DNA of 64,000 nucleotides from Dokdonia sp. (lineage in GTDB: Bacteria; Bacteroidota; Bacteroidia; Flavobacteriales; Flavobacteriaceae): assembly GCA_020630915.1 (NCBI GenBank), contig JAHDIF010000004.1, forward strand, positions 248,001 to 312,000, written 5' to 3'. A program made the translations under genes and the position numbers. The notes under the pieces were generated by a model. That model saw only the letters and a list, made by a program, of their open reading frames with translations, was not told the origin of the DNA and made no database searches. Positions 1-59,625 of the stretch are shown here, in pieces. How positions within the stretch are numbered: the stretch's first letter is position 1; every line of letters begins with the position of its first letter.

Positions 1-331
1 GTTTAAAAATTTCCTACAACAGACGGGGTTTACCTATGAGACGGAGACGGAAAGTGCTTTCGCGAAAGCGTTACAGCAGGCGGAAAAAGATGGGCTTGAT
101 AAAACTATAAGTAGCGCGTATACCAACTTACAAAACACCATTACCCAAGCAAAAAATCAAGAGCTGGACACCCATAAAGACGAGATACAAACAGAACTAA
201 TAGACGAGATTGTAAAAAGGTATTTTTATCGAGACGGACTCTACGCGTATCACATACAGAATAGTCCCGAAATAGCCGAAGCAAAAGCAGTACTATCTGA
301 TCAAAAACGTTACACTAAAATTTTAAAATAA
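1..331 (+). CDS. S41-family C-terminal processing peptidase, C-terminal fragment
   Basis: Only the last 109 codons are present; the reading frame starts at base 2 and the gene is cut by the window edge. The piece is helical and charged and ends with a segment beginning EIVKRYFYRDGLY followed by a short NSPEIAEAKAVL helix. In my memory of flavobacterial tail-specific (Prc/CtpA-like) proteases this layout closes the protein after the PDZ and S41 catalytic domains, which would act in the periplasm. No catalytic residues are in view, so the family is an inference from the tail alone. The palindrome GCTTTCGCGAAAGC at 56-69 is read in frame as AFAKA. The gene ends five bases before the probable start of the OmpA-family gene, suggesting one transcription unit. 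Confidence 0.55.
   Translation, partial: FKNFLQQTGFTYETETESAFAKALQQAEKDGLDKTISSAYTNLQNTITQAKNQELDTHKDEIQTELIDEIVKRYFYRDGLYAYHIQNSPEIAEAKAVLSDQKRYTKILK
56..69. repeat. GCTTTCGCGAAAGC palindrome, copy 1
   Basis: Exact 14-bp copy inside the S41-like coding fragment, read as AFAKA. Confidence 0.9.
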
Positions 332-335
332 CACT

Positions 336-1217
336 ATCTACAGGTCACTTCTATATATCCTACTAGCATTCATTTCTTTAAATGCGTATGCTCAAACAGA
401 TCGAACACACGAAACGTTTTTTGATACTGATAAGCATGACCTTGTTAAAATTGAAGAGGCAAAATTAAAGCGTTTTATTGCAAGCTTGCCTTTAGAAAAA
501 ATAGAAGATATTGCCATTTACGGCTATTGTGATGATCGTGGGAGTGATGCTTACAACCAAGCACTTTCTCAGCGCCGTGCAGATGCTATAAAAACAGCTT
601 TTGTAAATAAAGGAGTGTCAGATAGTATTATTACCAATGCAGACGGTAAAGGAGAGCTTTTGCTCACCAGACTAGACGATGTTACGAATGAGATACAGCG
701 CAAACTTAATCGAAAAGTTGAAATAATAGTTTCTCTAAAAGTGCCTCCAAAACCTGTCGAAACTAAAACAGAAGACCTAGAAGAGGAGATTGTTATGGAA
801 ATTCCTCCTAGATACAAAACACTTACAGATACCATAGAAAAGGGAGATAAAATTCTTCTGGAAAATATCCTGTTTAAAACAAATTACAGCTACATACACG
901 GTAAGTCCTATAAAAACTTAAGAACCCTGGCTAAGTACCTTAAAGAAAACCCGCAGTTGATTTTTAAAATTCAAGGGCACGTATGTTGTGTAGATCATGG
1001 TCGTGATGGCGTAGATCTCAAAACAGGAAAGCGCAACTTATCTGTTGCCCGTGCAAAGTTTGTATATGACTATCTCTCTAAAAATGGCGTAGAGAAAAAA
1101 CGTATGCGCTATGAAGGTTTTGGGAGCAGGTATCCGCTAGGTGGTGATACTAAAGAAGATAAACGTGTAGAAATTTTAGTTACATATGTAAAAAAAATAA
1201 AACCTAAGAAGAAATAA
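336..1217 (+). CDS. OmpA-family protein with two OmpA-like domains
   Basis: This is a secreted cell-wall-binding protein of about 293 residues. An N-terminal OmpA-like domain carries the helix NQALSQRRADAI, and a second one (about residues 170-290) carries NLSVARAKFVYDYL followed by a GFGSRYPLGG loop. Both match the peptidoglycan-binding pattern N..LS..RA..V. The open frame continues upstream of the first usual start (TTG at 486) and encodes a convincing signal peptide, YRSLLYILLAFISLNAYAQ, with AYA before the cut. Starting at 486 would delete it and the first strand of domain 1. No ATG, GTG or TTG lies upstream in frame, so I place the start at the ATC codon at 336. A sequencing error or mutated ATG is the alternative. 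The 3' end overlaps the convergent acetyltransferase gene by 14 bp. Confidence 0.75.
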   Translation: MYRSLLYILLAFISLNAYAQTDRTHETFFDTDKHDLVKIEEAKLKRFIASLPLEKIEDIAIYGYCDDRGSDAYNQALSQRRADAIKTAFVNKGVSDSIITNADGKGELLLTRLDDVTNEIQRKLNRKVEIIVSLKVPPKPVETKTEDLEEEIVMEIPPRYKTLTDTIEKGDKILLENILFKTNYSYIHGKSYKNLRTLAKYLKENPQLIFKIQGHVCCVDHGRDGVDLKTGKRNLSVARAKFVYDYLSKNGVEKKRMRYEGFGSRYPLGGDTKEDKRVEILVTYVKKIKPKKK

Positions 1218-1731
1218 CCTTAGTCATCTCATAATACAAAAGCTCTTCTGCATCGTTTTCTAGCTTTATTTTCTTTTTAAAAACCAGTCCTAACTTTTCT
1301 AACAACCCACGAGAAGCCTCATTTTTTTCTATAGTAATCGCGCCTATTGTTTGTAAACCAAAGTCGTTAAAAGCCGCATCCCTTAAACAGCGAGCAGCTT
1401 CGTATCCATAGCCCTTGCGTTCAAAATTAGGTAGATAAGAAAACCCGATGTCTACTCCTTGTAAACCTTCTCTATCATATAAACCACAGCACCCTATCTT
1501 TGTGCCATCAGTTCTTAAGGATACGGTATAGTTTCCATAGCCCAATCGTTCATACTGAGGCAGTACACGATCACTTATATATTTCTGAGCGGCTTCTAGC
1601 GTTTTTACATTTCTGTCCCCTATAAACTCGATCCATTTTGGGGTATTTAATAAAGCCAAAAATAACGGTGCGTCCTCTATTGAAGTGGGTGTGAGTAAAA
1701 GACGGTCTGTTTCTAGTATAGACTTCTTCAT
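1204..1731 (-). CDS. GNAT acetyltransferase, RimJ/RimL type
   Basis: This 175-residue protein would transfer an acetyl group from acetyl-CoA to an amine, perhaps a protein N-terminus; the substrate is unknown. The start LETDRLLLTPTSIEDA is typical of the RimJ/RimL branch (Acetyltransf_3). The acetyl-CoA pyrophosphate loop appears as RKGYGYEA near residue 107, and the C-terminal NEASRGLLEKLG helix is the usual motif B. It is full length for the family. It converges on the OmpA-family gene with a 14-bp overlap, so there is no room for a terminator between them. Confidence 0.85.
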   Translation of the reverse strand: MKKSILETDRLLLTPTSIEDAPLFLALLNTPKWIEFIGDRNVKTLEAAQKYISDRVLPQYERLGYGNYTVSLRTDGTKIGCCGLYDREGLQGVDIGFSYLPNFERKGYGYEAARCLRDAAFNDFGLQTIGAITIEKNEASRGLLEKLGLVFKKKIKLENDAEELLYYEMTKVISS

Positions 1732-1856
1732 GACTACGTAAAGGTACTATTCCTTTTTTTAGACTTTTAAGCACGTATGAACTACCTATCAAAAGGTGAT
1801 TATACGATGGTGTCGTGCCTGATATATTTCAAAAAACTTATCTTTAAAATAAAAAT

Positions 1857-4206: not shown

Positions 4207-4260
4207 GTGGTTAGATTTTATGATATACAAAGTTAAAAAAATAGGAGGGAGGTGAAGTAT

Positions 4261-4274
4261 GCTTTCGCGAAAGC
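4261..4274. repeat. GCTTTCGCGAAAGC palindrome, copy 2
   Basis: Exact copy upstream of rpiB, one of only two exact copies outside genes. The flanks extend it to AGTATGC/GCATACT, giving a longer inverted repeat. Confidence 0.9.
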
Positions 4275-9671: not shown

Positions 9672-9685
9672 GCTTTCGCGAAAGC
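9672..9685. repeat. GCTTTCGCGAAAGC palindrome, copy 3
   Basis: Exact intergenic copy 18 bp after the LysE-family stop codon, before the terminator shared with tRNA-Cys. Confidence 0.9.
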
Positions 9686-10463: not shown

Positions 10464-12491
10464 ATGAGTGATACACATAAATCATTAAATTTTTTAGAGC
10501 AAATAGTAGAAGACGATCTAGCTAACGGATACACACGTGAGCAACTGCGTTTTCGTTTTCCGCCAGAGCCTAATGGATATTTACATATAGGGCATTGCAA
10601 AGCAATAGGCATTAGTTTTGGGCTAGGAGAGAAGTATGATGCGCCGGTAAACCTTCGTTTTGATGATACAAACCCAGCTAAGGAAGAGCAGGAGTATGTA
10701 GACGCAATTAAGGAAGATGTAGCATGGTTAGGATACAAATGGGATCAAGTATGCTTCTCTAGCGACTATTTCCAACAGTTGTATGATTGGGCTGTAGAGA
10801 TGATTAAAGATGGAAAAGCCTATGTAGATAGCCAGTCTAGCGAGGTTATGGCAGAGCAAAAGGGAACCCCTACACAACCGGGAGTTGCAGGACCATATCG
10901 TGATCGATCGGTAGAAGAAAATTTGGATCTCTTTGAGCGTATGAAAGCCGGTGAGTTTAAAGAAGGAGCGCACGTACTGCGTGCAAAAATAGATATGGCA
11001 GATCCTAATATGCTTATGCGTGACCCACTTATGTATCGCATTTTACATAAAGATCACCATCGCACAGGAAATACGTGGTGTATCTATCCTATGTATGATT
11101 GGACACACGGTGAGAGTGATTATATAGAACAAATTTCACATAGCTTATGCTCGTTGGAGTTTAAACCACATAGAAAACTGTATGATTGGTTTTTGGACCA
11201 AGTGTATACGGGTAAAGATTTACGCACGAAGCAAAGAGAATTTGCGCGCCTTAATCTCAATTATACAATTATGAGTAAGCGTAAATTATTGCGTCTTGTA
11301 GAAGAAGGTGTGGTCTCGGGTTGGGATGACCCACGTATGCCTACCATATCTGGTTTACGTCGTCGTGGATATACTCCTATGGCATTGCGCAAGTTTGTTG
11401 AGACTGTAGGGGTTGCAAAACGAGAGAATGTTATAGACGTATCGCTGTTAGAATTTAATATACGTCAAGACCTTAATAAAACAGCTACCAGAGTAATGGC
11501 TGTTTTAGACCCTGTAAAGTTAGTGATTACTAATTATCCTGAAGGAAAAGAGGAACAACTCCTAGCAGATAACAATCCAGAAGATTCTAATTCTGGAACG
11601 CACGAGGTGCCGTTCTCTAGAGAATTATACATCGAGAGAGAAGATTTTAAGGAAGAAGCAAGTAACAAGTATTTTAGACTTACGCTTGGGAAAGAAGTGC
11701 GCCTTAAGAATGCATACATCATAAAAGGGGAGAGCGTTGTAAAAGACGCTTCTGGAGCTATTAAAGAGATACATTGTACATACGATCCAGAAAGTCGTTC
11801 TGGAAGCGGCACAGAAGCTTCTAAGCGCAATGTAAAAGGCACTTTACACTGGGTGTCTATTCAACATGCCGTTAAGGCAGAAGTAAGACTTTATGATCGC
11901 TTATTTAACAACGAGTCTCCAGATGGACACCCGGAAAAAGATTTTATGGAGTTTCTCAATCCCGAAAGTCTCAAGGTAATTACAGGATATGTAGAACCTT
12001 TTCTTGCCAATGCGAAGGTGGGAGATCGATTCCAGTTTCAGAGATTGGGGTATTTTAATGTAGACTTAGATAGTACGGCAGATAAGTTAGTCTTTAATCG
12101 TACGGTAGGATTACGTGATTCTTGGGCTAAGCAAAAGCCAAAACCTCAGCAAAACCAAGGACAACCCAAACCACAACAACAACAGCAAGCAAGTGCGTTA
12201 AGTACGATTAATAAGCTAGGTAAAAAACTAGCTAATCTTCCAGAAGAGAAACGCATAGCAACCATAGCAGATATTGAGAAACATGCCGCTAACCTTTCTG
12301 AAGAAGAAGTAAAAGGCTTCTTTAATACCGCTGCTAAAAAAGTAGGAACACGTATGGCGGGAATTGTTAGCTTATATGCTTTCGCGAAAGCACACTCAAA
12401 AGAAATCTCGAGTATAGATGGTGCCGAAGAATTTGTCCAAAAAGCACTTGAAGATAAGAACGAATTGCTGCAAGAGGTAGCGAGTAGATAA
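10464..12491 (+). CDS. glnS: Glutaminyl-tRNA synthetase with a C-terminal extension
   Basis: GlnRS charges tRNA-Gln with glutamine. I start at MSDTHKSLNFLEQIVEDDL (10464), matching other GlnRS starts; the open frame extends upstream without family similarity. The HIGH motif is in PPEPNGYLHIGH (residues 33-44) and the KMSKS equivalent is MSKRK near 270, followed by the class I anticodon-binding beta barrels to about 555. Then come a Pro/Gln-rich linker (about 557-575) and an extra helical domain of about 100 residues (INKLGKKLANLPEEKRI onward). Total length is 675 against about 554 in E. coli. A palindrome copy lies in the extension as AFAKA. The tail may be a YqeY/GatB-like tRNA-binding domain, but I cannot confirm this. 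Confidence 0.95.
   Translation: MSDTHKSLNFLEQIVEDDLANGYTREQLRFRFPPEPNGYLHIGHCKAIGISFGLGEKYDAPVNLRFDDTNPAKEEQEYVDAIKEDVAWLGYKWDQVCFSSDYFQQLYDWAVEMIKDGKAYVDSQSSEVMAEQKGTPTQPGVAGPYRDRSVEENLDLFERMKAGEFKEGAHVLRAKIDMADPNMLMRDPLMYRILHKDHHRTGNTWCIYPMYDWTHGESDYIEQISHSLCSLEFKPHRKLYDWFLDQVYTGKDLRTKQREFARLNLNYTIMSKRKLLRLVEEGVVSGWDDPRMPTISGLRRRGYTPMALRKFVETVGVAKRENVIDVSLLEFNIRQDLNKTATRVMAVLDPVKLVITNYPEGKEEQLLADNNPEDSNSGTHEVPFSRELYIEREDFKEEASNKYFRLTLGKEVRLKNAYIIKGESVVKDASGAIKEIHCTYDPESRSGSGTEASKRNVKGTLHWVSIQHAVKAEVRLYDRLFNNESPDGHPEKDFMEFLNPESLKVITGYVEPFLANAKVGDRFQFQRLGYFNVDLDSTADKLVFNRTVGLRDSWAKQKPKPQQNQGQPKPQQQQQASALSTINKLGKKLANLPEEKRIATIADIEKHAANLSEEEVKGFFNTAAKKVGTRMAGIVSLYAFAKAHSKEISSIDGAEEFVQKALEDKNELLQEVASR
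12378..12391. repeat. GCTTTCGCGAAAGC palindrome, copy 4
   Basis: Exact copy in the C-terminal extension of glnS, read as YAFAKAH. Confidence 0.9.
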
Positions 12492-14321: not shown

Positions 14322-15824
14322 GATTGCTATTGCTTTTTCTAAGCGCTTGATAGTTTCTTCCTGACCTATTGTTGCTGCAATCTCAAAAACATCTGGACCT
14401 TGCATCGCTCCTACAAGACTTAACCGTAAGGGTTGCATTACTTTTCCAAAGCCTAGCTCATTGGCTACAATCCACCCCTTCACAGCTTGTTGAACTTCTT
14501 CTGTAGTAAATGTTGAGACGTTAGCTATAACCTCTTTTACTTGGGTCATAATTGTGGACGTGTCTTCTTTCCATCCTTTTTTTGAAGCCTTTGCATCAAA
14601 TTCTTGTGGCGCCTCAAAAAAGAAACTTCCTAAATCCCAAAGGTCGGCAACAAACGTAGCACGTTCTTTAATCAAGTCTACTACCTTAGATACATACTGA
14701 GGGGATGCGTCTACACCTTTTTCTCGAAGCAAGGTCATAAATGAGGTAGATACACTTTCGTTACTGGCCTTTTGTAAATAATGCTGCTGGAACCACTTTG
14801 TTTTTTCTGGGTCAAACTTGGCACCTGCTTTATTTACTTTTTTCAAATCAAATGCTTGAACAAGCTCTTCTAAAGAGAAGATTTCTTGCTCTGTCCCTGG
14901 ATTCCACCCTAAGAAGGCAAGCATATTTACCACTGCTTCTGGAAGGTAACCGTCTTCTTTGTAACCACTAGAAATTTCATTGGTTTTGGGATCTTGCCAT
15001 TGTAGCGGAAATACCGGAAAACCTAATTTATCTCCATCACGCTTGCTTAGTTTACCTTTTCCTACGGGTTTAAGGATAAGCGGTAAGTGTGCAAATTTAG
15101 GGGCATCCCAGCCAAAGGCACGGTATAGTAATACGTGAAGGGCAAGGGAGGGTAGCCACTCTTCACCGCGTATCACGTGAGTAATTTCCATTAAATGATC
15201 ATCTACAATATTTGCCAGGTGATAGGTAGGCATCCCGTCTGACTTAAAGAGAACTTTATCATCTAGAATGTTTGTGTCTATGTAAATATCCCCACGTATT
15301 TCATCTTGTAGATGTAATTTTTCGTCTTGAGGAGATTTAAAACGTATCACATAGTCTTCTCCTGCAGCGATGCGCTTTTCTACCTCGTCGGCAGGGTGTA
15401 CTAAGGAGTTATCTAATTTAAGACGGTTGTGCCAGTTGTAGATAAAGGTTTTTCCTTTGGCTTCGTGGTCTTTTCTGTGCTGGTTAAGTGCTTCTGCCGT
15501 GTCAAAGGCGTAGTACGCATTTCCTGAGTCTAATAACGCTTTCGCGAAAGCGTGATACTTCTCCTTACGCTCGCTCTGTCTGTAAGGTCCAAAACCTCCG
15601 TCCTTACCTGGTCCTTCGTCAAAAGGAATCCTGCACCAATCTAAGCTTTCTTTTATATAATCTTCGGCACCAGCTACATAGCGATTTTGGTCTGTATCTT
15701 CTATGCGCAGCACAAAAGTACCCTTGTGTTTTTTTGCAAAAAGGTAATTAAATAGAGCAGTGCGCACCCCACCTATATGGAGCGGTCCCGTAGGACTAGG
15801 AGCAAAACGTACGCGTACAGACAT
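14316..15824 (-). CDS. gltX: Glutamyl-tRNA synthetase
   Basis: GltX charges tRNA-Glu with glutamate. I place the start at MSVRVRFAPSPTGPLHIG (15824), eight codons inside the longest frame, because this is the canonical N-terminus. The HIGH motif is in PLHIGGVRTALFNYL and the KMSKS loop is KLSKRDGDKLG near residue 260. The C-terminal anticodon-binding domain is complete, giving 502 residues in total. The palindrome is read as AFAKA in the segment between the first two conserved blocks. With glnS nearby, both Glu and Gln are charged directly, so an amidotransferase pathway is not needed for Gln-tRNA. Confidence 0.95.
   Translation of the reverse strand: MSVRVRFAPSPTGPLHIGGVRTALFNYLFAKKHKGTFVLRIEDTDQNRYVAGAEDYIKESLDWCRIPFDEGPGKDGGFGPYRQSERKEKYHAFAKALLDSGNAYYAFDTAEALNQHRKDHEAKGKTFIYNWHNRLKLDNSLVHPADEVEKRIAAGEDYVIRFKSPQDEKLHLQDEIRGDIYIDTNILDDKVLFKSDGMPTYHLANIVDDHLMEITHVIRGEEWLPSLALHVLLYRAFGWDAPKFAHLPLILKPVGKGKLSKRDGDKLGFPVFPLQWQDPKTNEISSGYKEDGYLPEAVVNMLAFLGWNPGTEQEIFSLEELVQAFDLKKVNKAGAKFDPEKTKWFQQHYLQKASNESVSTSFMTLLREKGVDASPQYVSKVVDLIKERATFVADLWDLGSFFFEAPQEFDAKASKKGWKEDTSTIMTQVKEVIANVSTFTTEEVQQAVKGWIVANELGFGKVMQPLRLSLVGAMQGPDVFEIAATIGQEETIKRLEKAIAIL
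15538..15551. repeat. GCTTTCGCGAAAGC palindrome, copy 5
   Basis: Exact copy within gltX, read on the minus strand as HAFAKAL. The flanks extend it to an 18-bp palindrome with ACGC/GCGT ends. Confidence 0.9.
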
Positions 15825-17013: not shown

Positions 17014-20000
17014 ATGATGAATCAATTTAAAAACATAGAGCGCAAGCTAGAGGCGTTTATTAAGAGGTATTATACAAATGAGTTGCTTAAAGGAGCAATT
17101 TTGTTTTTTGCTTTTGGCGTCTTGTATTTTCTAATCACTCTGCTGGTAGAATATTTTTTCTGGTTGCGACCTGCAGCAAGAACTGTTCTTTTTTGGATGT
17201 TTGTCGTGGTAGAACTAGGATTACTCATAAAATTTATTATCGTACCGCTAGCTAGGCTTTTTAAGCTCTCCAAGGGAATTACTTTTAATGATGCAGCGCA
17301 TATAATAGGCAATCATTTTCCAGAGGTGGAGGACAAATTACTTAACACGCTACAATTACATAGAGATGCGGAGAATTCTGAGCTTATGCTAGCTAGCGTA
17401 GCTCAAAAGAGTGCGTCGCTACAGCCTATTCCTTTTAAACTGGCAATAGATTTTAGAAAGAACGTAAAGTATCTAAAGTATGCGCTTATCCCTATTGCTC
17501 TTTTCTTAATTGCGAATTATGGAGGTAAGGACGCTGTTTTTAGCTCTAGTTATGAGCGTGTGGTAAATTATAGTGAAGCGTATGAGCCACCAGCACCTTT
17601 TGATTTTTATGTGGTGAATGAATACCTTAAAGGAATAGAAAACAAAGATTTTAAATTACAAATACGTACTACTGGAGATGTGATTCCAGAAGAGGCTTCT
17701 ATTCACTTTAATAATGAGACCTATTTTCTTGAGCAAACAAGACCTGGGGAGTTTTCTTTTGTGTTTGAGCAACCTACAAAGGACATTGAGTTTTATTTAC
17801 AAGCCAATAAGGTAACCTCAAAGAAGTACTCTATAGCTATTTTAGAGGTGCCGTCGCTCGTTAATTTTACCATGGAACTCGAGTACCCCGCATATACTAA
17901 AAAGCGAAAAGAAGTGGTGAAAAGCACTGGAAACGCTGTTATTCCAGAAGGCACTAAAGTAACCTGGTTAATGGATACCAAACAAACGGATGAGGTGCAC
18001 ATGATTTTGGAGGATACGATGTATGCTTTCGCGAAAGCAAATTCAACCTCATTTAACCTGACCAGGCGAGTTTACAAGAACACGCCTTATGAAGTGTCTA
18101 CAAGTAACACGTTCTTAAAAAACTATGAGAATATCGCCTATAACCTGCAAGTAGTAAAAGATCAATTTCCTACACTTTCTTTAGAAGCAAAAAAAGACAG
18201 CCTTAACGAGCAGCAGGTTTATTTCTTTGGAAAGGTAAGTGACGATTATGGTTTGTCAAAACTGCAGTTGGTCTACTATCAAGAAGGAACAGACCAGAAA
18301 TTAAAGAAACAGATTCCTTTAAGAAATGGCAATGTAGATCAGTTTGTGTATGCTTTTCCAGATGCATTAGAATTAGAAAAAGGAAAGACGTATGAGTACT
18401 ATTTTGAGGTTTTTGATAACGATAGGATACATAGCTTCAAAAGCACAAAAAGCAGCGTATTTTCCTTTGCAAAGTTAACGCAGAGCGAATTAGAGAAGGA
18501 GCAACTCAATAAGCAGAAGGAGTCTATTAAAAACCTAGATAAAACTTTAGAGAAGATAGAGCGACAGGAAAAAGAACTAAAGGAACTCTCAAAAACTCAA
18601 AAAGAAAAAGAACAACTTAATTATAATGATCAAAAAAAGTTGCAAAATTTTCTAAAGAGGCAAGAGCAGCAGGAAGAAATGATGCAGGACTTTTCTAAAC
18701 AGCTTAAAGAAAATCTAGAGGAGTTTCAAAAAGACGAGCCGCAAAGTGATGAGGATAAAGAAAAACTCAAAGAGCGATTAGAGCGATTAGAAAAGAAGGC
18801 AAAGGAAAATGAAAAGCTATTAGAAGAACTTGAGAAACTGAGAGAAAAACTAGATAAAGAAGAGCTTACGGAGAAGTTGGAAAAGCTGGAAAAGCAGAAT
18901 AAGAATAACAAGCGTAATCTGGAGCAAATGCTCGAACTCACAAAACGATACTATGTAGAGAAGAAAGCAGAAAAAATTTCAAGAGATTTAGAAAAACTGG
19001 CAGAGAAGCAGGAAGAGTTAAGTAAAAAAGAAGGTGAGGAGAACACCAAAGAAGAACAAGATAAGCTTAATGAAGAGTTTAAAAAACTAGAAGAAGAAAT
19101 TAAAAGCCTTGAGAAAGATAATAACGCGCTCAAAAAACCTATGGACATTCCGAGCGATCCTAAGAAGCAACAGGAAATTAAGGAGGAGCAGGAAGGCGCT
19201 AGTGAAGAATTAGAAAAGCAGGAGCAACAGAGTGCTGAGGAACAAAACAAGACTACTGCTCAAAAGAAGCAAAAAAAAGCGGCTGAGAAGATGAAGCAAA
19301 TGAGTAAATCTATGCAGGCGAGCATGCAAATGTCAGGGCAAGAAGCTATGGAAGAGGATGCAGAGATGCTGCGGCAAATCCTAGATAATTTACTTGTATT
19401 TTCTTTAGAAGAAGAAGATCTTATGTTAGATTTTAGGAGGATAAACGATAAGAATCCGCTGTATGCCAAGAAGTTAAGGAGGCAAAATGTATTGAAGCAA
19501 AATTTTGAGCACGTAGATGATAGTTTATACGCGCTTTCATTAAGGGTGCCAGATCTAGATGAAAGAATAAACGAATCTTTAGTAGACATTGATTACAATC
19601 TGGGCAAATCTCTAGAAAGGTTGGCAGAGAGCCAGGTGGTGCAGGGGGTAAGTAGTCAGCAGTATGTGATTACTGGGGCAAATGAGCTGGCAGACCTGCT
19701 GAGCAAGTCTTTGGATCAAATGCAAAATACAATGTCGGGTCAAGGACAAGGTCAGGGACAAGGGATGGGTAAAGGACAAGGTTCAGGTAAAGGAAAGCAA
19801 TTGCCCGATATAATACAGAGTCAAGAGGACCTCAATGAGAAAATGGAAAAGGGTAGTTCTCCTGGCGACAAAGGAGATGGAGAAGACGGAAAGAACGGTG
19901 AAGGAGAAAAGGGCGAGAACGGAGAGGGAGAAAAGGGTGACAGTGGCGACGGGCAAGAAGGTTCTAGTGGTGAGGGAGGAGAAGGCTCTAATGGTAATGG

Positions 20001-39700: not shown

Positions 39701-40767
39701 AAGAGCTTATAATCATACAAACTGCCACTCCAGATTATCGAAAAGCTTTTTTTGATGAGATCAGAAGTGCCTTGGGTAAGGATTTTGAGCTTTACAGGGG
39801 AAGTGGATATTTTGAAAAGAGTGTGGTTACAGACTACGGGATTAAAGCTCGTAACTGTAAGAATTACTTTCTTCTTGGAAGAAGGTTGTTATTTCAAACA
39901 GGAATTTGGGGCACACTATTTTCTAAAGCAGTCCTGGTGCTAGAAATGAATCCGCGAGTGCTGTCTAATTGGATTCTACTGCTCATAAGGGGTTTTACTG
40001 GAAGACAAACTGTTTTATGGGGTCACGCGTGGCCTAGAAAAGGAAAAGATAGTAAGAGCGACATACTCAGACACCTTATGAGACTGTTAAGCACAACAAT
40101 TATTACCTATACCTCCACACAAAGAGAAGAACTACTGCAACGTATGCCTAACAAGACTATTTATGCAGCCCCTAACGCCTTGTTTTCTAAAAATCAAATG
40201 TATGTACAAGACAATACGCATAAAGCAAAGAATCTCATATACGTAGGTCGCCTTACCGAATCTAAAAAGCCATTTTTTCTGGTAAAGGCATTTGCAAACG
40301 CACTGGCTCAATTACCTGAGGAGATGAATTTAATAATTGTGGGGAGTGGAAAAGAAGAGGGACGTATGGAAAAATTCATCCAACAAAACGCTTTAGAAGG
40401 CAGGATACTACTCAAAGGACACATAAGTGACATCAAGGAGTTAGGAGCGCTGTATGAGCAAAGCTTCTTTAGTATATCTCCCGGATACCTTGGTTTATCG
40501 GTCACACAAAGTTTTGGATTTGGTGTGCCTATGCTGGTTTCTAAAAATGAAAATCATTCTCCAGAGATAGAAGCGATCTCAGAAATTAAAAATGCCCTTT
40601 TCTTTGATACGGATGATGAGGTTAGCTTTCGCGAAAGCGTTCTTAGCACCATAAAAAACAGAGAATACTGGATACAGCAACGGCCAGAAATTCATGAGTT
40701 TTGCAGAGAAAACTATTCTGTGGAGGCCATGGCACAAGTATTTATTAACTTAGTAAAAAACGTATGA
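39697..40767 (+). CDS. GT4-family glycosyltransferase, GTG start
   Basis: This 356-residue GT-B enzyme has its C-terminal nucleotide-sugar domain in the GT4 pattern: LIYVGRLTESKKPFFLVKAFA (about 180), IIVGSGKEEGRMEKFI, then the acidic E-x7-E-like region FGVPMLVSKNENHSPEIEAI. The N-terminal acceptor half is diverged. Acceptor and donor are unknown. It overlaps both neighbours by four bases. A palindrome copy near the C-terminus is read as FRES, the only exact copy in that frame here. Confidence 0.85.
   Translation: MKELIIIQTATPDYRKAFFDEIRSALGKDFELYRGSGYFEKSVVTDYGIKARNCKNYFLLGRRLLFQTGIWGTLFSKAVLVLEMNPRVLSNWILLLIRGFTGRQTVLWGHAWPRKGKDSKSDILRHLMRLLSTTIITYTSTQREELLQRMPNKTIYAAPNALFSKNQMYVQDNTHKAKNLIYVGRLTESKKPFFLVKAFANALAQLPEEMNLIIVGSGKEEGRMEKFIQQNALEGRILLKGHISDIKELGALYEQSFFSISPGYLGLSVTQSFGFGVPMLVSKNENHSPEIEAISEIKNALFFDTDDEVSFRESVLSTIKNREYWIQQRPEIHEFCRENYSVEAMAQVFINLVKNV
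40625..40638. repeat. GCTTTCGCGAAAGC palindrome, copy 12
   Basis: Exact copy in a GT4 gene, read as SFRESV, the third reading frame. Confidence 0.9.
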
Positions 40768-43399: not shown

Positions 43400-44474
43400 G
43401 AAAATTTTAATCATAGGGCCTTTTCCGGAACCCATCACCGGCGTATCGCTTGCTAATAAAGTTGTAGCAGAGGTACTAAGAGATAGCAATGAGTATAGAG
43501 TTCGTATAATAAATACTTCCTACTCACGATTTGATGAAGAAGTAGGTAGTTTTTCATTGCATAAATTCTTGTTTAACTTGTCTTTTTACCTAGGACTTTG
43601 GAGGGTCTTGTTTTGTGATATTTTATATATCACACCTGGACAGACTTTTTACGGAGTCCTTAAATACGCAGGGTTTGTTTATGTAAGTTCGCTTTCGCGA
43701 AAGCAAATCATAACCCATATACACGGCAACTATCTAGGAAGAGAATATCAAAGTCTTAGGGGGCTAAGGAAAAGGTTGGTAAAAAGCGTTTTATCTAAAA
43801 CTACAACAGGAATTGTTCTTTCTTCATCACTCAGGAACAATATGAGCCCGTTTATAAAACAGGAGGCGATTAAAGTGCTTCCTAATTTTGCCCAAGACTA
43901 TATAGCTCAATCAAACAAAAAGAAACAAGAGCCAGGTTTGAGAGTTATCTACCTGAGCAATCTAATGAGAGAAAAGGGCATTTTTCATCTACTTGGAGCG
44001 TTACAAATACTAGAAGATACTAAGGTTCCTTATGAAGCTAGAATAGCAGGAGCCATAGATAAGAATCAGAAAAGCCATATAATGACCCTTATTAGCAAAT
44101 TAGAAAACACATCCTATGTAGGTGTAGTGCAGGGAGAAAGCAAAAAAGGACTGCTGCAATGGGGAAATGTCTTTACACTTCCTACATTTTATAAAATGGA
44201 AGGACAACCTATTTCTATTCTAGAAGCTCTCGCGACAAAAAATGTGATTATAACTACTGCACATGCAGGTATACCGGATATCTTAACGGATCAAGAACAT
44301 GGATTTTTTATAGATATTAGTAACGCAGAAGAAGAGATTGCTTCAAAGTTTACACACTTAATTAATTCGCCAGAGCTTTTAGCATCAATGGGTGAGGGCA
44401 ATGAGGCATACTTTCAAGAAAATTTCACCCTCGACATATTTAAGAATAAATTACTCAATATCTTTGAGTCGTAA
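43383..44474 (+). CDS. GT4-family glycosyltransferase
   Basis: This GT-B enzyme of about 363 residues probably starts at MPKKGKKILIIGPFPEPITG (43383); the frame also opens at 43365. ILIIGPFPEPITGVSLANKVVAE is the acceptor-binding start with its glycine loop. VIYLSNLMREKGIFHLLGAL and PTFYKMEGQPISILEALATKN, with the E-G-x-P-x-S-x-x-E-A pattern, are GT4 hallmarks. The start overlaps the ligase-like gene by 17 bp. A palindrome copy is read as LSRK. Confidence 0.88.
   Translation: MPKKGKKILIIGPFPEPITGVSLANKVVAEVLRDSNEYRVRIINTSYSRFDEEVGSFSLHKFLFNLSFYLGLWRVLFCDILYITPGQTFYGVLKYAGFVYVSSLSRKQIITHIHGNYLGREYQSLRGLRKRLVKSVLSKTTTGIVLSSSLRNNMSPFIKQEAIKVLPNFAQDYIAQSNKKKQEPGLRVIYLSNLMREKGIFHLLGALQILEDTKVPYEARIAGAIDKNQKSHIMTLISKLENTSYVGVVQGESKKGLLQWGNVFTLPTFYKMEGQPISILEALATKNVIITTAHAGIPDILTDQEHGFFIDISNAEEEIASKFTHLINSPELLASMGEGNEAYFQENFTLDIFKNKLLNIFES
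43691..43704. repeat. GCTTTCGCGAAAGC palindrome, copy 13
   Basis: Exact copy in a GT4 gene, read as SLSRKQ. Confidence 0.9.
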
Positions 44475-45022: not shown

Positions 45023-46235
45023 GTTGCAAGGAAAAAACATCACTCTTATAAGTCTCAATTTCTATCCAGAGCAAACAGCTATAGGTTTATATTCTACACA
45101 GCTTGCCCAGTTTCTTGAGGAACAAGGCGCACACGTTACTGTTATAACGGCCTACCCATACTATCCAGAGTGGAAAATACACAAAGAGTATATGAATGCA
45201 GGTTCGTTTATGGAAGAGCAATTAGGGAACTTGCACATCATTAGATATAAACAATACACTCCAGAGGACCCCTCTTTTCTTAAACGAGTTTTTCACATTA
45301 TTGATTTTACATTAGGCACTTGGCGGAATATTAAAAAAGTAACCACCTGCGATACCGTTATCTCTGTAATACCATTTACGAGTAGTTCATGGTTGGGGAA
45401 TAAGCTTTCGCGAAAGCATAATGCAAAACATTGGATACATATTCAAGACTTTGAGTTTGATGCGGCATTTCAATCGGGTCTCGCCTCAGGTAAAAATAAT
45501 CGTAGTTTTTTATACAACCGATTAATGAAATTGGAAACCAGTATATTAAACAAAGCAGACCGTGTGAGCACTATAAGCCACAATATGATGGCAAAACTAC
45601 AGGCGAAAACCACTACACCACCCTATTACTTGCCCAACTGGGTAGAAGCCGATGAGCTGCATAGTAAGGCGGAACACCCACATGTAAACTCTTCAAAATT
45701 TACCATACTCTATTCTGGAAATATAGGAGAGAAGCAAGACTGGGATTTTTTTATGGAAGTCGTTGCTCAATTGGATCTTTCGTTGTACAATATTGTCATT
45801 GTCGGAGATGGCTCCAAGAAACAATGGCTTGAGCAAAGCCTAGAAGGTTATGAAGGAATAGGTATTTTGCCTTTAGTGCCGTTTTCAGAGCTTAGCTCGT
45901 TACTAGCAAGTGCAGATGTACATATATTGTTCCAAAAAACCGAAATTTTAGATACGGTAATGCCGTCTAAAGTATTGGGCATGATGGCTAGCGGTAAACC
46001 TTCTATCGTAACGGGACATCCAGAAGCAGAGGTGGGCGATGTGTTGAACAGCTGCGAAGGAGGGTATTATGTGACTCAAAACAATGTAGAAACAATAGTT
46101 CAAGCTTTTGAAAAATTAAGAACCAATCCTCAAGCTTCAAAAATCATGGGGCAACAAGCAAGAAAACATGTTTTAGAAACGTATGCTAAAAAAGGAATCT
46201 TAGAGGCATTCTGCAAAGAATTAGACCAATTGTAG
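45015..46235 (+). CDS. WcaI-like GT4 glycosyltransferase
   Basis: This 406-residue glycosyltransferase resembles WcaI of the colanic-acid pathway: LISLNFYPEQTAIGLYSTQLAQFLEEQG at the N-terminus, then YPYYPEWKIHKEY. The nucleotide-sugar half has ILYSGNIGEKQDWDFF, and VMPSKVLGMMASGKPSI is the usual P-S-K loop. In E. coli WcaI transfers fucose; the donor here is not proven. A palindrome copy is read as LSRK. Confidence 0.88.
   Translation: MHKLQGKNITLISLNFYPEQTAIGLYSTQLAQFLEEQGAHVTVITAYPYYPEWKIHKEYMNAGSFMEEQLGNLHIIRYKQYTPEDPSFLKRVFHIIDFTLGTWRNIKKVTTCDTVISVIPFTSSSWLGNKLSRKHNAKHWIHIQDFEFDAAFQSGLASGKNNRSFLYNRLMKLETSILNKADRVSTISHNMMAKLQAKTTTPPYYLPNWVEADELHSKAEHPHVNSSKFTILYSGNIGEKQDWDFFMEVVAQLDLSLYNIVIVGDGSKKQWLEQSLEGYEGIGILPLVPFSELSSLLASADVHILFQKTEILDTVMPSKVLGMMASGKPSIVTGHPEAEVGDVLNSCEGGYYVTQNNVETIVQAFEKLRTNPQASKIMGQQARKHVLETYAKKGILEAFCKELDQL
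45404..45417. repeat. GCTTTCGCGAAAGC palindrome, copy 14
   Basis: Exact copy in the WcaI-like gene, read as KLSRKH. Confidence 0.9.
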
Positions 46236-49938: not shown

Positions 49939-51095
49939 GACAAAACTTTCAATAAGTTTTCAAATTGCTTTTGTCCATTAAATGTTGCAACTGCCCGTTG
50001 TTGCACCTCTTTTTTAGCGGGCCATTGAGCGTTGGCGAAAATGGAAGCGAGAGTGTTATTAATTCCTTTAAAATCACCAGAAGGGGCAACCCAACCTAAT
50101 TCGTTTTTTAGCACCAACTCTTCACCTTCCCCACCACCGCAATACAACATCGGGAGACCTAATCTGCCATATTCAAATATTTTTGAAGGCACTGATCCGT
50201 AAATTCTATTAATTAGTGGGATAATGGTGAGGTCGTACGACTGTAGTTGTTTGTGTAACTCATTTCGCGAAAGCGAACCCCTATATCTGATATTCTTAGT
50301 AGACTGTTGAAGATATGCTTCGATTTTCTGTTTTTGAGGACCATCACCGTAAATATCAAAAGACCATCCTGATGGTAATTCTATAGCTTCGCATAGCTCC
50401 AATATTCCTTGCGCGAAACCTAGTAAACCTGCATACACCATCTTTTTATTATCGTTGGTGTTTTCTTCTAATTCAGGCGGATTAAAATTGGGTAAATTAC
50501 GGTACAAGAATATATCCTTGTTAGGATATAATGTCTTTACGTGAGCCCCTATTTCTTTAGACTGCCCAAGGACAAGATCTGCTTTTCGGTAGCAGTATCG
50601 TTCTATTTTTTCAAGAAGTCTGTAAGTAAATCCTTCTTTTAGTTTACCTAATTCTTTCCCTGCTAGTGGCCACAAATCAGACACGTTAAGTAATAGCTTA
50701 CGTGATTTCCTTTTAAAAAAGAGCGTACTAAAAAAGCCAACTAACAGCGGTGAATATTGCACAAAAACTAGGGAAGGTAATTTGTGAAACAAACTATACC
50801 TACCCAGAGATATTGAAAACGAAATCATAGCAAGAAAACGCTTCCATAAACGAGGGGAGTTTGTAGCATACACCCACAGTCTTGTGACTTTTACGCCGTT
50901 TAGTATTTCAGAGTTTCCGGAGGATCCTTTGTAATCATCAAATATTTTTCCTGTGGGGTAATTGGGTAATGGACATAGCACATGAGTTTCGTAACCGGCA
51001 GCGGCAAAATTTTCGGCAAGAAGGGCAATGCGGTTTGCCGCAGCCCCAGTTTCTGGAGGATAGTAGTTTGTGATAATGGTAATACTACGCTTCAT
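49935..51095 (-). CDS. GT4-family glycosyltransferase, WbuB-like
   Basis: This 386-residue glycosyltransferase probably starts at MKRSITIITNYYPPETGAAANRI (51095), which overlaps wecB by 11 bp. NYYPPETGAAANRIALLAENF is the WbuB-like acceptor domain start. KMVYAGLLGFAQGILELCEAI and the VPSKIFEYGRLGLPML loop belong to the donor domain. WbuB adds amino-fucose or related N-acetyl sugars; the neighbouring wecB suggests an N-acetylated donor. A degenerate palindrome lies at 50261-50274. Confidence 0.85.
   Translation of the reverse strand: MKRSITIITNYYPPETGAAANRIALLAENFAAAGYETHVLCPLPNYPTGKIFDDYKGSSGNSEILNGVKVTRLWVYATNSPRLWKRFLAMISFSISLGRYSLFHKLPSLVFVQYSPLLVGFFSTLFFKRKSRKLLLNVSDLWPLAGKELGKLKEGFTYRLLEKIERYCYRKADLVLGQSKEIGAHVKTLYPNKDIFLYRNLPNFNPPELEENTNDNKKMVYAGLLGFAQGILELCEAIELPSGWSFDIYGDGPQKQKIEAYLQQSTKNIRYRGSLSRNELHKQLQSYDLTIIPLINRIYGSVPSKIFEYGRLGLPMLYCGGGEGEELVLKNELGWVAPSGDFKGINNTLASIFANAQWPAKKEVQQRAVATFNGQKQFENLLKVLS
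50261..50274. repeat. Degenerate palindrome copy (12 of 14 bases)
   Basis: CATTTCGCGAAAGC matches GCTTTCGCGAAAGC except for the first two bases. It is in the GT4 gene, read on the minus strand within GSLSRNEL. Confidence 0.6.
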
Positions 51096-52179: not shown

Positions 52180-53483
52180 TAGGTCAAGCTTACAAATTGT
52201 TTGAGTTTTCCACTTTTCTGGCGGTCTATAGTGTCAAATTTATTAAATAAAATATGGAGCCCAGGTTCAAGGTAGGTGCTTAGCGCTTTTTCAATTTCCT
52301 GTGTACGCTTTCGCGAAAGCGTAACCCCCACATAATCTATCTCAAAAGTATCTACTTTTGTTTGTCTAATAACAAATTCTGTAATATCTCCTTTGTCACT
52401 TATAATGGTCTTGGTTACATAATAAAAAGTAAGCCCAGGAATGACTTTTCCACTAGGAAGCCTCGCAATATCATTGGTCCTTCCTATGAGCTTTTGTAAA
52501 ATAGGTTTTTTTGCAGTGCTTTTGCCTGAAAGGATGCCTGTGTCTCCTATGTCGTATCGTATAAAAGGATGCGCTTTGTTATACAATGAGGTAACTACAA
52601 TGCGCCCTTGTTCTCCTGATGGAACAGGCTTATTATTGTCATCTAGAATTTCTATAAATAGCGACTCACTATTGAGTTGTAGGTCTCCAGCAGTGTTTTG
52701 GAAGGCGATGAGATCTAACTCAGAAGCACCGTATTCGTTAATTACAGGTATATTAAACTGTGTTTCTAACACTACTCTATCATCATCAAAAAGCATTTCG
52801 CTCGTTACAAAGCAGGCTTTGAGTGCGGGACAAACAGTGGTTAAAACGATGTTGTTTTTTTTGAGATACTTTGCAAAAAGAACAACACTACTCGTATACC
52901 CGTTTATGTATTCAAAAGGGGTTTTCTTGAATTTTTGAAGAACCTTTTCTAAATTTTTATCATTAAGATTAAAAATAGGGAAGCGGTACCTGTGGCTTAG
53001 CGTGTCTTTAAGACGCTCTTTATGATACCCAATGGTGTCTAAAGGAATTCCGTAAAAACGAGCCTGTAAAGAGCTATTAAAGTTAATGTCGTACCACCCA
53101 AAACGATCTTGTATAATTGCCCAAGTAAGCGCGTGGCACGCTTTGTCTTTGGCAAATACAAATGGATGCCCAGAAGACCCTGAAGTTTTGCCTACATACA
53201 CATTTTTAGGAGTATATTCTGAGGAGAGGCGGTGTTCTAACTTTTGTTGCAGGTCACTTTTTGTAAGCACAGGAAGTTGCTCCCAGGGAGTGGCTTCAGT
53301 TGTGCCTAAAAGCTTTTGATAAAAAGGAGTATGCTTTTGATGATAGGCAACAATGGCTGCTTTTTCCTGCTCAATGTGAGCTGCATAAGAGGCCTCAGGA
53401 ATGGATTGAATGGTTGCTAATGTTGCTTTCGCGAAAGCAATATCATAACCACGTACTTTTAATGTCCAATCAAATAAATTCAC
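52179..53483 (-). CDS. CapK/PaaK-like adenylate-forming enzyme of the polysaccharide locus
   Basis: This 434-residue protein is of the phenylacetate-CoA ligase-like (CapK) family found in capsule loci. The AMP-binding motif is YVGKTSGSSGHPFVF (about residues 96-110), followed by INGYTSSVVLFAKYL, INEYGASELDLIAFQ and HPFIRYDIGDTG. It probably activates a carboxylate; its role in the polymer is unproven. It overlaps the wecB start by one base. Two palindrome copies lie inside this gene, near its start (AFAKA) and near its end (LSRK); no other gene has two exact copies. Confidence 0.82.
   Translation of the reverse strand: MNLFDWTLKVRGYDIAFAKATLATIQSIPEASYAAHIEQEKAAIVAYHQKHTPFYQKLLGTTEATPWEQLPVLTKSDLQQKLEHRLSSEYTPKNVYVGKTSGSSGHPFVFAKDKACHALTWAIIQDRFGWYDINFNSSLQARFYGIPLDTIGYHKERLKDTLSHRYRFPIFNLNDKNLEKVLQKFKKTPFEYINGYTSSVVLFAKYLKKNNIVLTTVCPALKACFVTSEMLFDDDRVVLETQFNIPVINEYGASELDLIAFQNTAGDLQLNSESLFIEILDDNNKPVPSGEQGRIVVTSLYNKAHPFIRYDIGDTGILSGKSTAKKPILQKLIGRTNDIARLPSGKVIPGLTFYYVTKTIISDKGDITEFVIRQTKVDTFEIDYVGVTLSRKRTQEIEKALSTYLEPGLHILFNKFDTIDRQKSGKLKQFVSLT
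52307..52320. repeat. GCTTTCGCGAAAGC palindrome, copy 15
   Basis: Exact copy near the 3' end of the CapK-like gene, read on the minus strand as TLSRKR. Confidence 0.9.
53425..53438. repeat. GCTTTCGCGAAAGC palindrome, copy 16
   Basis: Exact copy near the 5' end of the CapK-like gene, read on the minus strand as IAFAKAT. Confidence 0.9.
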
Positions 53484-56226: not shown

Positions 56227-56912
56227 GTAAACTGGACCTAGAGGAGATTGAGAGCCAACTTAAAAAACGATTGGAATATCCGTATCTATGGATGCGCAAG
56301 CAAAACGATTCTTGGGACAATGCCACCCGCTTTATTTATAAATACCCTAATTGGGATGATTTCGTAAAAGCGATGGAAAAAGCTTGGAAAAAAGGTAGTT
56401 TTGATAAGAATTCCTTTTCTCACTATGCCATGAACCGCTGGTATAACTTTTGGAGCGCACAAGCAGCAGAGCAAATTTTTACAGAGTTACCAGGCGTTGC
56501 CCCAAACCCGAATCCTAAGGAAGATCAATATGATTTTAGGTGGCTAGGAGAGCGGTTTGATTTAAAAACGAGTGTATTTCCTAAGGGGTATGATAAGGAG
56601 TACGCTTTAACGCTTTGCTCTCCCGATGGTCGTGAATCTCGCGCGCTCGATTTCGCGAAAGCGCACCCAGAACACCTTATACAGTGGTTTTATAAAAATC
56701 AAAGTACGCAGCAACGATTTCATCTCAAAAACCGATTGTTTATTGTATGTTATGATGAGCAAGGAGCGCATTATAAACTAAAGTCCGAGATCACACTCCT
56801 TAAGCAAGCAATAGAAAACTACATGAAAGAACGCACGCCTGCAGATACTTTTAGTCTGTATTTAGAAGAAGGAAAAGAAACACTGGCAGACATAATCTGG
56901 GTAGAAAAATGA
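56223..56912 (+). CDS. Putative type II restriction endonuclease (PD-(D/E)xK type)
   Basis: This 229-residue protein starts at MSKLDLEEIESQLKKRL (56223). A possible PD-(D/E)xK core is D104 and D113-L-K115 in YDFRWLGERFDLKTS, preceded by SHYAMNRWYNFWSAQAAEQIF. It overlaps the downstream adenine methyltransferase by four bases, the usual pairing of a restriction enzyme with its methylase. No specific family is recognised, so nuclease activity is inferred from motif and context. Residues 133-147 (SPDGRESRALDFAKA) are encoded by one copy of the 53-bp repeat, inserted about 18 residues after the putative catalytic lysine. Confidence 0.55.
   Translation: MSKLDLEEIESQLKKRLEYPYLWMRKQNDSWDNATRFIYKYPNWDDFVKAMEKAWKKGSFDKNSFSHYAMNRWYNFWSAQAAEQIFTELPGVAPNPNPKEDQYDFRWLGERFDLKTSVFPKGYDKEYALTLCSPDGRESRALDFAKAHPEHLIQWFYKNQSTQQRFHLKNRLFIVCYDEQGAHYKLKSEITLLKQAIENYMKERTPADTFSLYLEEGKETLADIIWVEK
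56611..56663. repeat. 53-bp palindrome-bearing repeat, copy A
   Basis: By eye it matches the reverse complement of 58644-58696 at 50 of 53 positions. It contains a near copy of the palindrome at 56649-56662 and is read in frame as SPDGRESRALDFAKA inside the nuclease-like gene. Confidence 0.85.
56649..56662. repeat. Near-exact palindrome copy (13 of 14)
   Basis: GATTTCGCGAAAGC, one mismatch to the consensus, forms the right end of repeat copy A. Confidence 0.75.
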
Positions 56913-58521: not shown

Positions 58522-58531
58522 TTCAGAAAGT

Positions 58532-58550
58532 CCTCTCCCCTTGGGAGAGG
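58532..58550. repeat. CCTCTCCC-CTT-GGGAGAGG hairpin repeat
   Basis: A perfect 8-bp stem with a 3-nt loop, followed by ATTTAGGTGAGGG, between DUF4254 and the GT9 gene. I recall this unit as a common intergenic repeat in Bacteroidetes and other genomes. Confidence 0.6.
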
Positions 58551-58566
58551 ATTTAGGTGAGGGATC

Positions 58567-59625
58567 ATGAAAAAACCACAGCACATACTCATTATAAGAT
58601 TATCTGCTATGGGTGATGTAGCGATGACGGTCCCTGTGATATACGCTTTCGCGAAATCGAGCACGCGAGATTCACGACCGTCGGGAGAGCGAAGCGGTAA
58701 AGCAAACCCAGACCTAAAAATCACGGTTCTTTCCAAGCCCTTTTTTAAACCCATAATAGAAACAATTCCCAATATTAATTTTGTGGCTGCCGAAACCAAT
58801 GGCAAGCACAAAGGAATTATAGGATTGTGGAAACTGTCGCGCGAATTAAAAGCCCTAGGCATTAGCCAAATTGCCGACTTACATAATGTCTTACGCTCCA
58901 AGATTCTCAAATTGTTTATGGGAGTGCCAAGTGCGTCCATAGACAAAGGTCGTGCAGAGAAAAAAGCACTCACTCGAGCAAAAAACAAAGATTTCAGACC
59001 TTTAAAGAGGACTCTACAACGGTATGTTGAGGTCTTTGAAAAGTTAGGGTATGCCACATTCAATCCAGAGATGCTACCGAAACCCGTAAGCAATGATACC
59101 GTACAGCACTTTACAGGACTAGACGAAAAAAAATGGATTGGTATCGCCCCTTTTGCGGCACATCAAGGCAAGCAATATCCGTTGGATTTGATGCGGGAAG
59201 TAATTGTAGGACTCAATAAAAGTACAGATGTACGTTTGTTCTTGTTTGGGGCACCGCAAGAAAAAGAGCAGCTACTAGAACTCTCCAAAGGTTGTGACTC
59301 GTGTACTATTGTAGCCGGCGCCTTACAATTTCAAGACGAAATTAATCTAATTGCTCAGTTAGACGGGATGCTTTCAATGGATAGTGGTAATGGACACCTC
59401 GCTGCGATGTTTGGCGTACCTACAGTTACATTATGGGGAGTGACGCATCCCTATGCAGGTTTTGCCCCTTTTGGACAAGAAGCACATTGTTTAGTTTCAG
59501 ATAGAGAGAAATATCCTTTAATTCCTACTTCTGTTTATGGTAATAAAGTGCCTGAAAGATATGGGGGTGTAATGCGAAGTATTGCGCCTGTGACGATATT
59601 GGAAAAGATAAAAAGCTTAACTTAA
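58567..59625 (+). CDS. GT9-family (heptosyltransferase-like) glycosyltransferase with repeat insertion
   Basis: This 352-residue GT-B enzyme of lipopolysaccharide-core synthesis starts HILIIRLSAMGDVAMTVPVI, the GT9 N-terminus. The donor-site region includes IGIAPFAAHQGKQYP, MLSMDSGNGHLAAMFGVPTVTLWG and the HPYAGFAPF segment. Residues 31-45 (SSTRDSRPSGERSGK) come from repeat copy B and interrupt what is otherwise a smooth AFAK-ANPDLKITVL run, so they look like a 15-residue in-frame insertion. The fold's conserved parts are intact, and the insertion probably sits in a surface loop near the N-terminus. Confidence 0.88.
   Translation: MKKPQHILIIRLSAMGDVAMTVPVIYAFAKSSTRDSRPSGERSGKANPDLKITVLSKPFFKPIIETIPNINFVAAETNGKHKGIIGLWKLSRELKALGISQIADLHNVLRSKILKLFMGVPSASIDKGRAEKKALTRAKNKDFRPLKRTLQRYVEVFEKLGYATFNPEMLPKPVSNDTVQHFTGLDEKKWIGIAPFAAHQGKQYPLDLMREVIVGLNKSTDVRLFLFGAPQEKEQLLELSKGCDSCTIVAGALQFQDEINLIAQLDGMLSMDSGNGHLAAMFGVPTVTLWGVTHPYAGFAPFGQEAHCLVSDREKYPLIPTSVYGNKVPERYGGVMRSIAPVTILEKIKSLT
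58644..58696. repeat. 53-bp palindrome-bearing repeat, copy B
   Basis: The inverted counterpart of copy A at 56611-56663. It starts with a near copy of the palindrome (58645-58658, GCTTTCGCGAAATC) and is read in frame inside the GT9 gene. Confidence 0.85.
58645..58658. repeat. Near-exact palindrome copy (13 of 14)
   Basis: GCTTTCGCGAAATC, one mismatch to the consensus, forms the left end of repeat copy B, read as AFAKS. Confidence 0.75.

Follow-up and report, generated by a model that had tools for sequence, protein, structure and literature searches.

The stretch analyzed here (the window, 64,000 nucleotides; G000:C13:248001-312000) lies within a 2.97-Mb Dokdonia genome (G000), and through its genes, among them those for two tRNA synthetases, phosphoglycerate kinase (PGK) and several glycosyltransferase-like proteins, recurs a palindromic 14-base word, GCTTTCGCGAAAGC, eight of whose 14 bases are G or C (57% GC). 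An earlier interpretation of the letters alone (the sequence-only reading) had listed 16 exact copies, and our word count recovered every one of these starts together with the three near copies, of which that at 50261 has two mismatches and those at 56649 and 58645 have one each (Table 1). Its statement that chance predicts far fewer copies also holds, as 100 dinucleotide shuffles gave a mean of 0.2 matches with up to two mismatches and at most 2 in any shuffle. Fourteen of the 16 exact copies are in open frames, where nine are read as AFAKA, four as LSRK and one as FRES, in agreement with the earlier assignment, and these frames match listed open reading frames (ORFs) or, for the copy at 56, run past the left window edge. 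The remark that almost every host gene has only one copy holds too, the exception being the minus-strand gene 52179-53483, which has two (52307 and 53425).

Table 1. Exact and near copies of the 14-base word in the window
Feature	Position	Context
Exact copy, AFAKA	56..69	Open frame cut by the left edge of the window
Exact copy, outside listed ORFs	4261..4274	Upstream of the first possible start of ORF 3775-4230 (minus)
Exact copy, intergenic	9672..9685	Between an ORF end (9654) and tRNA-Cys (9746)
Exact copy, AFAKA	12378..12391	Close to the C terminus of a class I (E/Q family) tRNA synthetase
Exact copy, AFAKA	15538..15551	Second class I (E/Q family) tRNA synthetase gene
Exact copy, AFAKA	18025..18038	1159-aa protein, no Pfam match at 1e-5
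Exact copy, LSRK	23076..23089	Methyltransferase-domain (PF13489) gene
Exact copy, AFAKA	26661..26674	PGK
Exact copy, AFAKA	28741..28754	MltD-like murein transglycosylase gene
Exact copy, AFAKA	32665..32678	OlsH-like gene
Exact copy, AFAKA	37402..37415	GDP-fucose synthase-like gene
Exact copy, FRES	40625..40638	Glycosyltransferase-like gene
Exact copy, LSRK	43691..43704	Glycosyltransferase-like gene
Exact copy, LSRK	45404..45417	WcaI-family glycosyltransferase gene
Near copy, 2 mismatches	50261..50274	Within a 6.9-kb gap between exact copies
Exact copy, LSRK	52307..52320	Gene 52179-53483 (minus)
Exact copy, AFAKA	53425..53438	Same gene as the 52307 copy
Near copy, 1 mismatch	56649..56662	Right part of the window, free of exact copies
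Near copy, 1 mismatch	58645..58658	Right part of the window, free of exact copies

The genome as a whole contains 685 exact copies and none of a reversed control word, and the shuffles, the genome count and the control word together rule out chance or base composition as the source of the array. The sequence-only reading had proposed counting the word genome-wide and in relatives, and the outcome is far above expectation: all 17 Dokdonia congeners searched have 369-905 copies (some of these genomes being incomplete), and the 21 genomes of other genera in the same comparison have none. Among 397 genomes drawn evenly from the family at least one copy is found in 80 and hundreds in only six, namely G000, G012, three Nonlabens (578, 664, and 609 copies) and G222, which belongs to a third genus (g206; 408 copies, 46% GC in the G222 sample); the remaining 391 genomes have 0-19. 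A scan of named genomes gave, among the matches listed, mainly Dokdonia and Nonlabens, and many further genomes with one copy each. Leeuwenhoekiella (G435), Subsaximicrobium (G437), and Aquimarina (G433) each showed one 8-kb locus with one or two copies, and 40 kb sampled from each contained none, where a carrier would have about nine; these and other low-copy genomes are referred to below as motif-poor. Samples of 40-71 kb from each of eight motif-poor genera revealed no other conspicuous iterated palindrome, and an alternate palindrome considered in the sister genus Subsaximicrobium (TCGGTCGCGACCGA) was rejected, its four copies lying within 300 bases of a local repeat (L198:4933-5233).

The rpoB tree groups Leeuwenhoekiella with Dokdonia and G222 (support 99/97) and places Nonlabens elsewhere, and on this tree a single clade of all carriers is rejected (approximately unbiased test, p 0.007); the PGK tree does not resolve how the carriers are related. 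Since the carriers are not one clade, the trait was either lost several times or moved between lineages. The density of the word is 133-274 copies per Mb in 12 Dokdonia genomes that are at least 99% complete, 135 in the G222 sample and 224 in the Nonlabens sample. Across these 12 Dokdonia genomes a larger size brings hardly any more copies (rho 0.32, p 0.31) and a lower copy density (rho -0.80, p 0.002), the pattern expected if accessory DNA has few sites.

It is the nucleotide word and not one peptide that is conserved, as the sequence-only reading had stated. Specifically, in a 464-kb sample of G000 (16% of the genome, window included) with 115 exact and 18 one-off copies, that is, copies with a single mismatch, the word encodes every one of the 44 AFAKA peptides found in ORFs of 90 or more amino acids, which rules out protein-level selection for AFAKA. 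The ratio of one-off to exact copies is 0.16 in G000, 0.17 in G004, 0.35 in G222, and 0.13 in Nonlabens G273. When the 69 one-off copies from these four genomes are folded onto a half-site, they deviate at positions 1 (20), 2 (15), 5 (23), and 6 (8) and hardly at all at positions 3 (2), 4 (0), and 7 (1), and we read the strict inner positions as a probable signature of base contacts. The symmetry extends beyond the word. A C or T precedes it in 93-97% of half-sites and a G in no more than 1%; sites between genes have the form TTAY-word-RTAA, and out to about 18 bases the 5' flank is poor in C and the 3' flank poor in G. These preferences do not differ between the two sides of the sense strand, whatever the gene direction. 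The extended two-fold symmetric site is YGCTTTCGCGAAAGCR, with TTA/TAA plus C-poor/G-poor flanks for about 18 bases. Over 371 sites the true arms are no more complementary or stable than re-paired arms, and symmetric flanks without arm pairing point to a protein-like site on duplex DNA and not to an RNA hairpin, which supports the protein-binding site that was one of the three explanations offered by the sequence-only reading. No longer fixed repeat was found around the word, and its inner hexamer TCGCGA occurs 171 times in the 464 kb, 115 of them inside the word and 56 outside it, compared with 57.8 expected in all by base composition. Judged from these sequence patterns, the element is a two-fold symmetric site that would act at the level of DNA and not a peptide, a hairpin or an insertion scar.

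The sites are also placed in an unusual manner. With a simple ORF caller, 35 of 115 sites are intergenic in G000, 53 of 96 in G004, 12 of 62 in G222, and 47 of 98 in G273, and because the non-coding share of these genomes is 8-11% the sites favour intergenic DNA, although by the same caller coding sites make up 70% of our own sample and 45-81% in the other three genomes. The coding sites prefer less conserved protein stretches (48% versus 55% identity, 163 pairs that share queries, p 2e-6), and the same is seen in comparison with motif-poor genera (47% versus 52% identity, 50 pairs that again share queries, p 0.04). The fairly even spacing noted earlier in the window proved stronger than had been thought: the coefficient of variation (CV) of the gaps in the 464 kb of G000 is 0.61 where random placement gives 0.97 (standard deviation 0.09; none of 2000 draws as low), with four gaps below 1 kb against 24.6 expected, and in 420 contiguous kb of Nonlabens the CV is 0.45 versus 0.99 expected, with 1268 bases as the smallest of 93 gaps where 18.6 gaps below 1 kb are expected. 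Counts per 20 kb are very even (dispersion index 0.20-0.66). In the complete chromosomes G004 and G222, 20 stretches of 20 kb each, taken every 146-158 kb, all have at least one site, and no origin-terminus trend was seen by eye in either. One-off copies behave as members of the array. They avoid exact copies in all four genomes (p 6e-7 to 0.03), their median distance from one being 2.0-3.7 kb where random points give 1.0-2.3 kb; three of them lie in the 13.5-kb gap that is the longest in C13:1-240000; and their inclusion lowers the CV of our own sample to 0.52 and leaves that of Nonlabens at 0.45. Nevertheless, two of the 69 lie less than 600 bases from an exact copy. Copies with two mismatches avoid exact ones in three of the four genomes, the exception being G222 (p 0.18). 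Hence, the site is selected as DNA, symmetric, and evenly spread.

Individual sites can be followed between genomes. In one 20-kb region compared across ten Dokdonia, with flanks of about 64-99% identity, 318 pairwise comparisons gave 235 exact homologous words, 29 one-off, none two-off, 18 with 3-7 mismatches and 36 gapped, which suggests that orthologous sites are usually kept exactly. The site at 23076 is exact in six of eight aligned congener stretches and one-off in one, that at 28741 is exact in seven of nine and one-off in the other two, and that at 18025 is kept in L179, has three mismatches in L180, and is different in five others; a plasmid search with the 1159-aa protein that hosts the 18025 copy gave no lead. 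An alignment of PGK proteins from 28 genomes has no gap at the site: the word took the place of an xFAKx stretch of the same length through substitutions alone, and its codon position is shared by Nonlabens, G222, and some Dokdonia. More generally, for sampled stretches and with matches at or below 35% identity or without cover of the site excluded, the word is exact at the homologous codon in 5/11, 5/10, 5/11, and 3/9 cases between Dokdonia and G222, in 3/25, 1/8, 4/18, and 3/11 between Dokdonia and Nonlabens, and in 3/15 and 4/12 between G222 and Nonlabens. At homologous positions in motif-poor genera it is found in 0 of 42, and AFAKA conserved at the same sites in distant species, which the sequence-only reading had named as a result that would refute its view, did not occur. 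The gap between rpoB and rpoC holds a site in 12 of 12 carriers and in 0 of 16 other genomes, the carriers including G428 and G436, which were counted as named Nonlabens with the word and without a whole-genome count.

The Nonlabens phages P12024S and P12024L, which we take to be virulent, have no site in 71 kb and none within two mismatches, where about 16 would be present at host density. It should be noted that these two genomes (L423, L424) have no TCGCGA at all in the 71 kb. A scan of a virus collection found at least 120 stretches with the word, and of 15 hand-picked virus records seven have 2-5 copies and eight have one. By our reading of the translations, two of the richer records carry phage genes, one of them with an integrase-like protein. 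That resident phage DNA acquires sites is only suggested by these records.

Few words iterated throughout a genome have a demonstrated role, the known cases being the DNA uptake sequence (DUS) of Neisseria, the uptake signal sequence (USS) of Pasteurellaceae, Chi, the FtsK-orienting polar sequences (KOPS), and matS; the role of the highly iterated palindrome HIP1 is unsettled. We tentatively favour the view that GCTTTCGCGAAAGC is a protein-binding site acting as a self-DNA signal of the uptake-sequence kind, an uptake-type mechanism inferred from the distribution of the sites. In the mechanism we propose, GCTTTCGCGAAAGC would be bound by a putative, probably dimeric, double-strand DNA-binding protein which, at the cell surface or inside the cell, would favour site-bearing DNA in natural transformation or recombination. 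Each stretch of about 4 kb would profit from one site, and a second site nearby would add nothing. DNA exchange, both inside each of Dokdonia, Nonlabens, and the third genus (G222) and from one to another, would let copies accumulate and maintain them. A further-reaching claim, which we make more hesitantly, is that Bacteroidota may here have their first uptake or self-recognition sequence, which would also be the first with a palindromic form, and that three lineages that do not form a clade in the rpoB tree may constitute one DNA-exchange community in which a dimeric receptor reads GCTTTCGCGAAAGC. Here "first" is meant as far as is known and for the open-access literature searched, in which no paper matched the 14-mer and none of those listed for its inner 10-mer was on this topic.

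The resemblance to DUS and USS is extensive. As in those systems, hundreds of copies lie in and between genes with even spacing, the word is shared among related genera and occupies permissive, less conserved positions, homologous positions hold the word, a one-off form or unrelated sequence, and horizontally acquired DNA is poor in sites, to which the lower density in larger genomes corresponds here. One study reports a similar homologous-state pattern for the neisserial DUS and places both DUS and USS in less conserved stretches (PMC2397512). Unlike DUS and USS, the Dokdonia word is a 14-base palindrome with symmetric flanks, and it occurs in Bacteroidota; it is also sparser, at about 1 per 4 kb, compared with about 1 per 1 kb given for USS (PMC7811141). 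The lack of sites in the two Nonlabens phages is also in keeping with a self-DNA signal. Another report describes Riemerella columbina, there called a member of Flavobacteriaceae, as competent and as preferring its own DNA (PMC7965970).

Several observations weigh against a self-DNA signal. Known uptake sequences (USS, DUS) are, to our knowledge, not palindromes, and the uptake label is not easily carried over to a word that is palindromic and widely spaced and for which no receptor was found. Single-family searches found no carrier-specific protein, and ComEC, the family of the transformation channel, is non-discriminating, being present in 19 of 19 carriers and 10 of 10 motif-poor genomes. 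Under the conditions used for R. columbina, Flavobacterium johnsoniae did not prove competent (PMC7965970), and we found no report of competence in Dokdonia or Nonlabens in the open-access literature searched. The homologous-state counts come from a single 20-kb region, are non-independent and count each site repeatedly, and two of the 36 gapped pairs actually hold the word or 13 of its bases. Finally, two sites are fixed in a way that would also suit a structural role: that between rpoB and rpoC, present in every one of the 12 carriers, and that in the OlsH-like gene (32665), which is exact in nine of nine congener stretches (10 of 10 Dokdonia).

The main rival is a chromosome-organising site, a possibility that we consider tenable though rather doubtful. 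Here a lineage-specific nucleoid protein would bind every site, and about one per 4 kb would fold, insulate or segregate the chromosome, a close second site being redundant and lost, which would produce the even spacing. A symmetric, protein-like site with strict inner positions in the 69 one-off copies agrees with this, as do the very even counts per 20 kb, the lack of a bare region among the 20 stretches from each of the G004 and G222 chromosomes, the positions held through three genera, and the two Nonlabens phages without a site. Chromosomal sites of a comparable form are known in parS and the Noc site, GTTTCACGTGAAAC being the usual form of parS, and the Dokdonia word shares with them palindromy, a TTTC half-site and, as we propose, a dimeric DNA-binding protein; it differs in its hundreds of copies genome-wide. 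ParB_N counts in carriers are also much as in non-carriers, with a single match in each of 11 carriers, two in the twelfth (G011), and 1-3 in 10 non-carriers, which rules out a dedicated ParB paralogue common to carriers and counts against this rival. The window has a single copy of the parS-like GTTTCACGTGAAAC itself, the Nonlabens sample (L183/L211/L212) has two, and G018 has two copies of a variant, GTTCCACGTGGAAC. The absence of a visible origin-terminus trend in G004 and G222 also counts against chromosome organisation, the fall in density in larger genomes is odd if every stretch needs a site, and the related Leeuwenhoekiella, with no copies in 40 kb, lives without a dense array.

A Chi-like recombination hotspot, read by a break-processing or recombination enzyme such that each break must meet a site within a few kb, would likewise explain about one evenly spaced site per 4 kb and the two site-free phages, and palindromy would serve both directions. 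We regard it as unlikely, in that known Chi sites are short and one-directional, and 14 strict positions with symmetric flanks better fit a dimer on duplex DNA.

Less probable again is an origin of the kind proposed for cyanobacterial HIP1, in which the word is produced and maintained by an orphan DNA methyltransferase together with methyl-directed repair. The HIP1-like reading put forward earlier is right as to kind, since the word is a highly iterated palindrome with a CpG-rich core, and even spacing would suit strand signals for mismatch repair; what did not hold up are a shared methyltransferase, an excess of TCGCGA, and frequent one-off copies. Among 12 carriers, PF00145 is found in five, PF01555 (above cut-off) in two, PF02086 in six, and PF02384 in 11, and G222 has one PF01555 match and none of the other three, so that no methyltransferase is common to all carriers among these four Pfam families, other families not having been searched. 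The window has a D12-class DNA methyltransferase gene (PF02086) at 56909-57904; as this family is absent from six of the 12 carriers, the D12 methyltransferase is not the common reader. TCGCGA outside the word is at chance level (56 versus 57.8), and one-off copies are few (18 versus 115 exact). The word shares with HIP1 and the alternate HIPs of cyanobacteria a highly iterated, lineage-restricted palindrome (Elhai 2015, PMC4390886), and differs in being longer, about 4-15 times sparser, and without over-representation of its inner hexamer. HIPs are described there as mostly 75-100% GC with 1000-2000 per Mb (PMC4390886), compared with 57% GC and 133-274 per Mb in the 12 Dokdonia genomes. With no shared methyltransferase in four families and no extra common ParB, the labels HIP1 and Noc do not fit.

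It is very improbable that the word is an RNA element, a transcript hairpin for processing, stability or termination. By eye, an inverted repeat larger than the word often surrounds the copy between rpoB and rpoC, and unrelated inverted repeats occur at this junction in several motif-poor genera as well (L393-L420); a hairpin may be a general feature of the rpoB-rpoC junction. Over the 371 sites, though, real arms are no more stable than re-paired ones (-10.22 versus -10.62 kcal/mol intergenic, -11.12 versus -11.30 coding), the two sides of the sense strand show similar flank preferences, and the 3' flanks are A/C-rich and not T-rich, and on this arm-pairing and flank evidence we reject an RNA hairpin or terminator. 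Palindromic repeats such as the Rickettsial palindromic elements (RPE), some of them inside genes, and repetitive extragenic palindromes (REP) with their bacterial interspersed mosaic elements (BIME) are familiar, and an identical word in unrelated genes recalls them, yet we give next to no credence to scars of a mobile palindromic element, because the word arose at PGK, the one gene tested, by substitution without length change (the alignment that the sequence-only reading had proposed for this purpose), is not part of a longer fixed repeat, and is not confined to intergenic DNA.

Because the word is long, symmetric, and evenly spaced and has few deviating copies, its reader should be accessible via a short duplex such as the 22-bp TTACGCTTTCGCGAAAGCGTAA, and in culturable bacteria like these the question of how a genome maintains a regularly spaced word becomes open to direct test. 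The word may also serve as a birthmark for DNA that left these lineages, as in a metal-resistance island and its relatives in other genera. Clusters of the word occur in motif-poor genera in eight stretches (L185-L192, from G110, G119, G133, G246, G368, G381, and G044), for which DNA from a carrier lineage is the best reading. Of the eight, only L191 (G381) aligns with none of the rest; the other seven each align with one or more. L185, the only one read gene by gene, is by our reading a copper/silver-type resistance island with CusA-, TolC-, multicopper-oxidase-, and CopA-like genes. In four genera, two sites are found at the same distance of 933 bases from each other.

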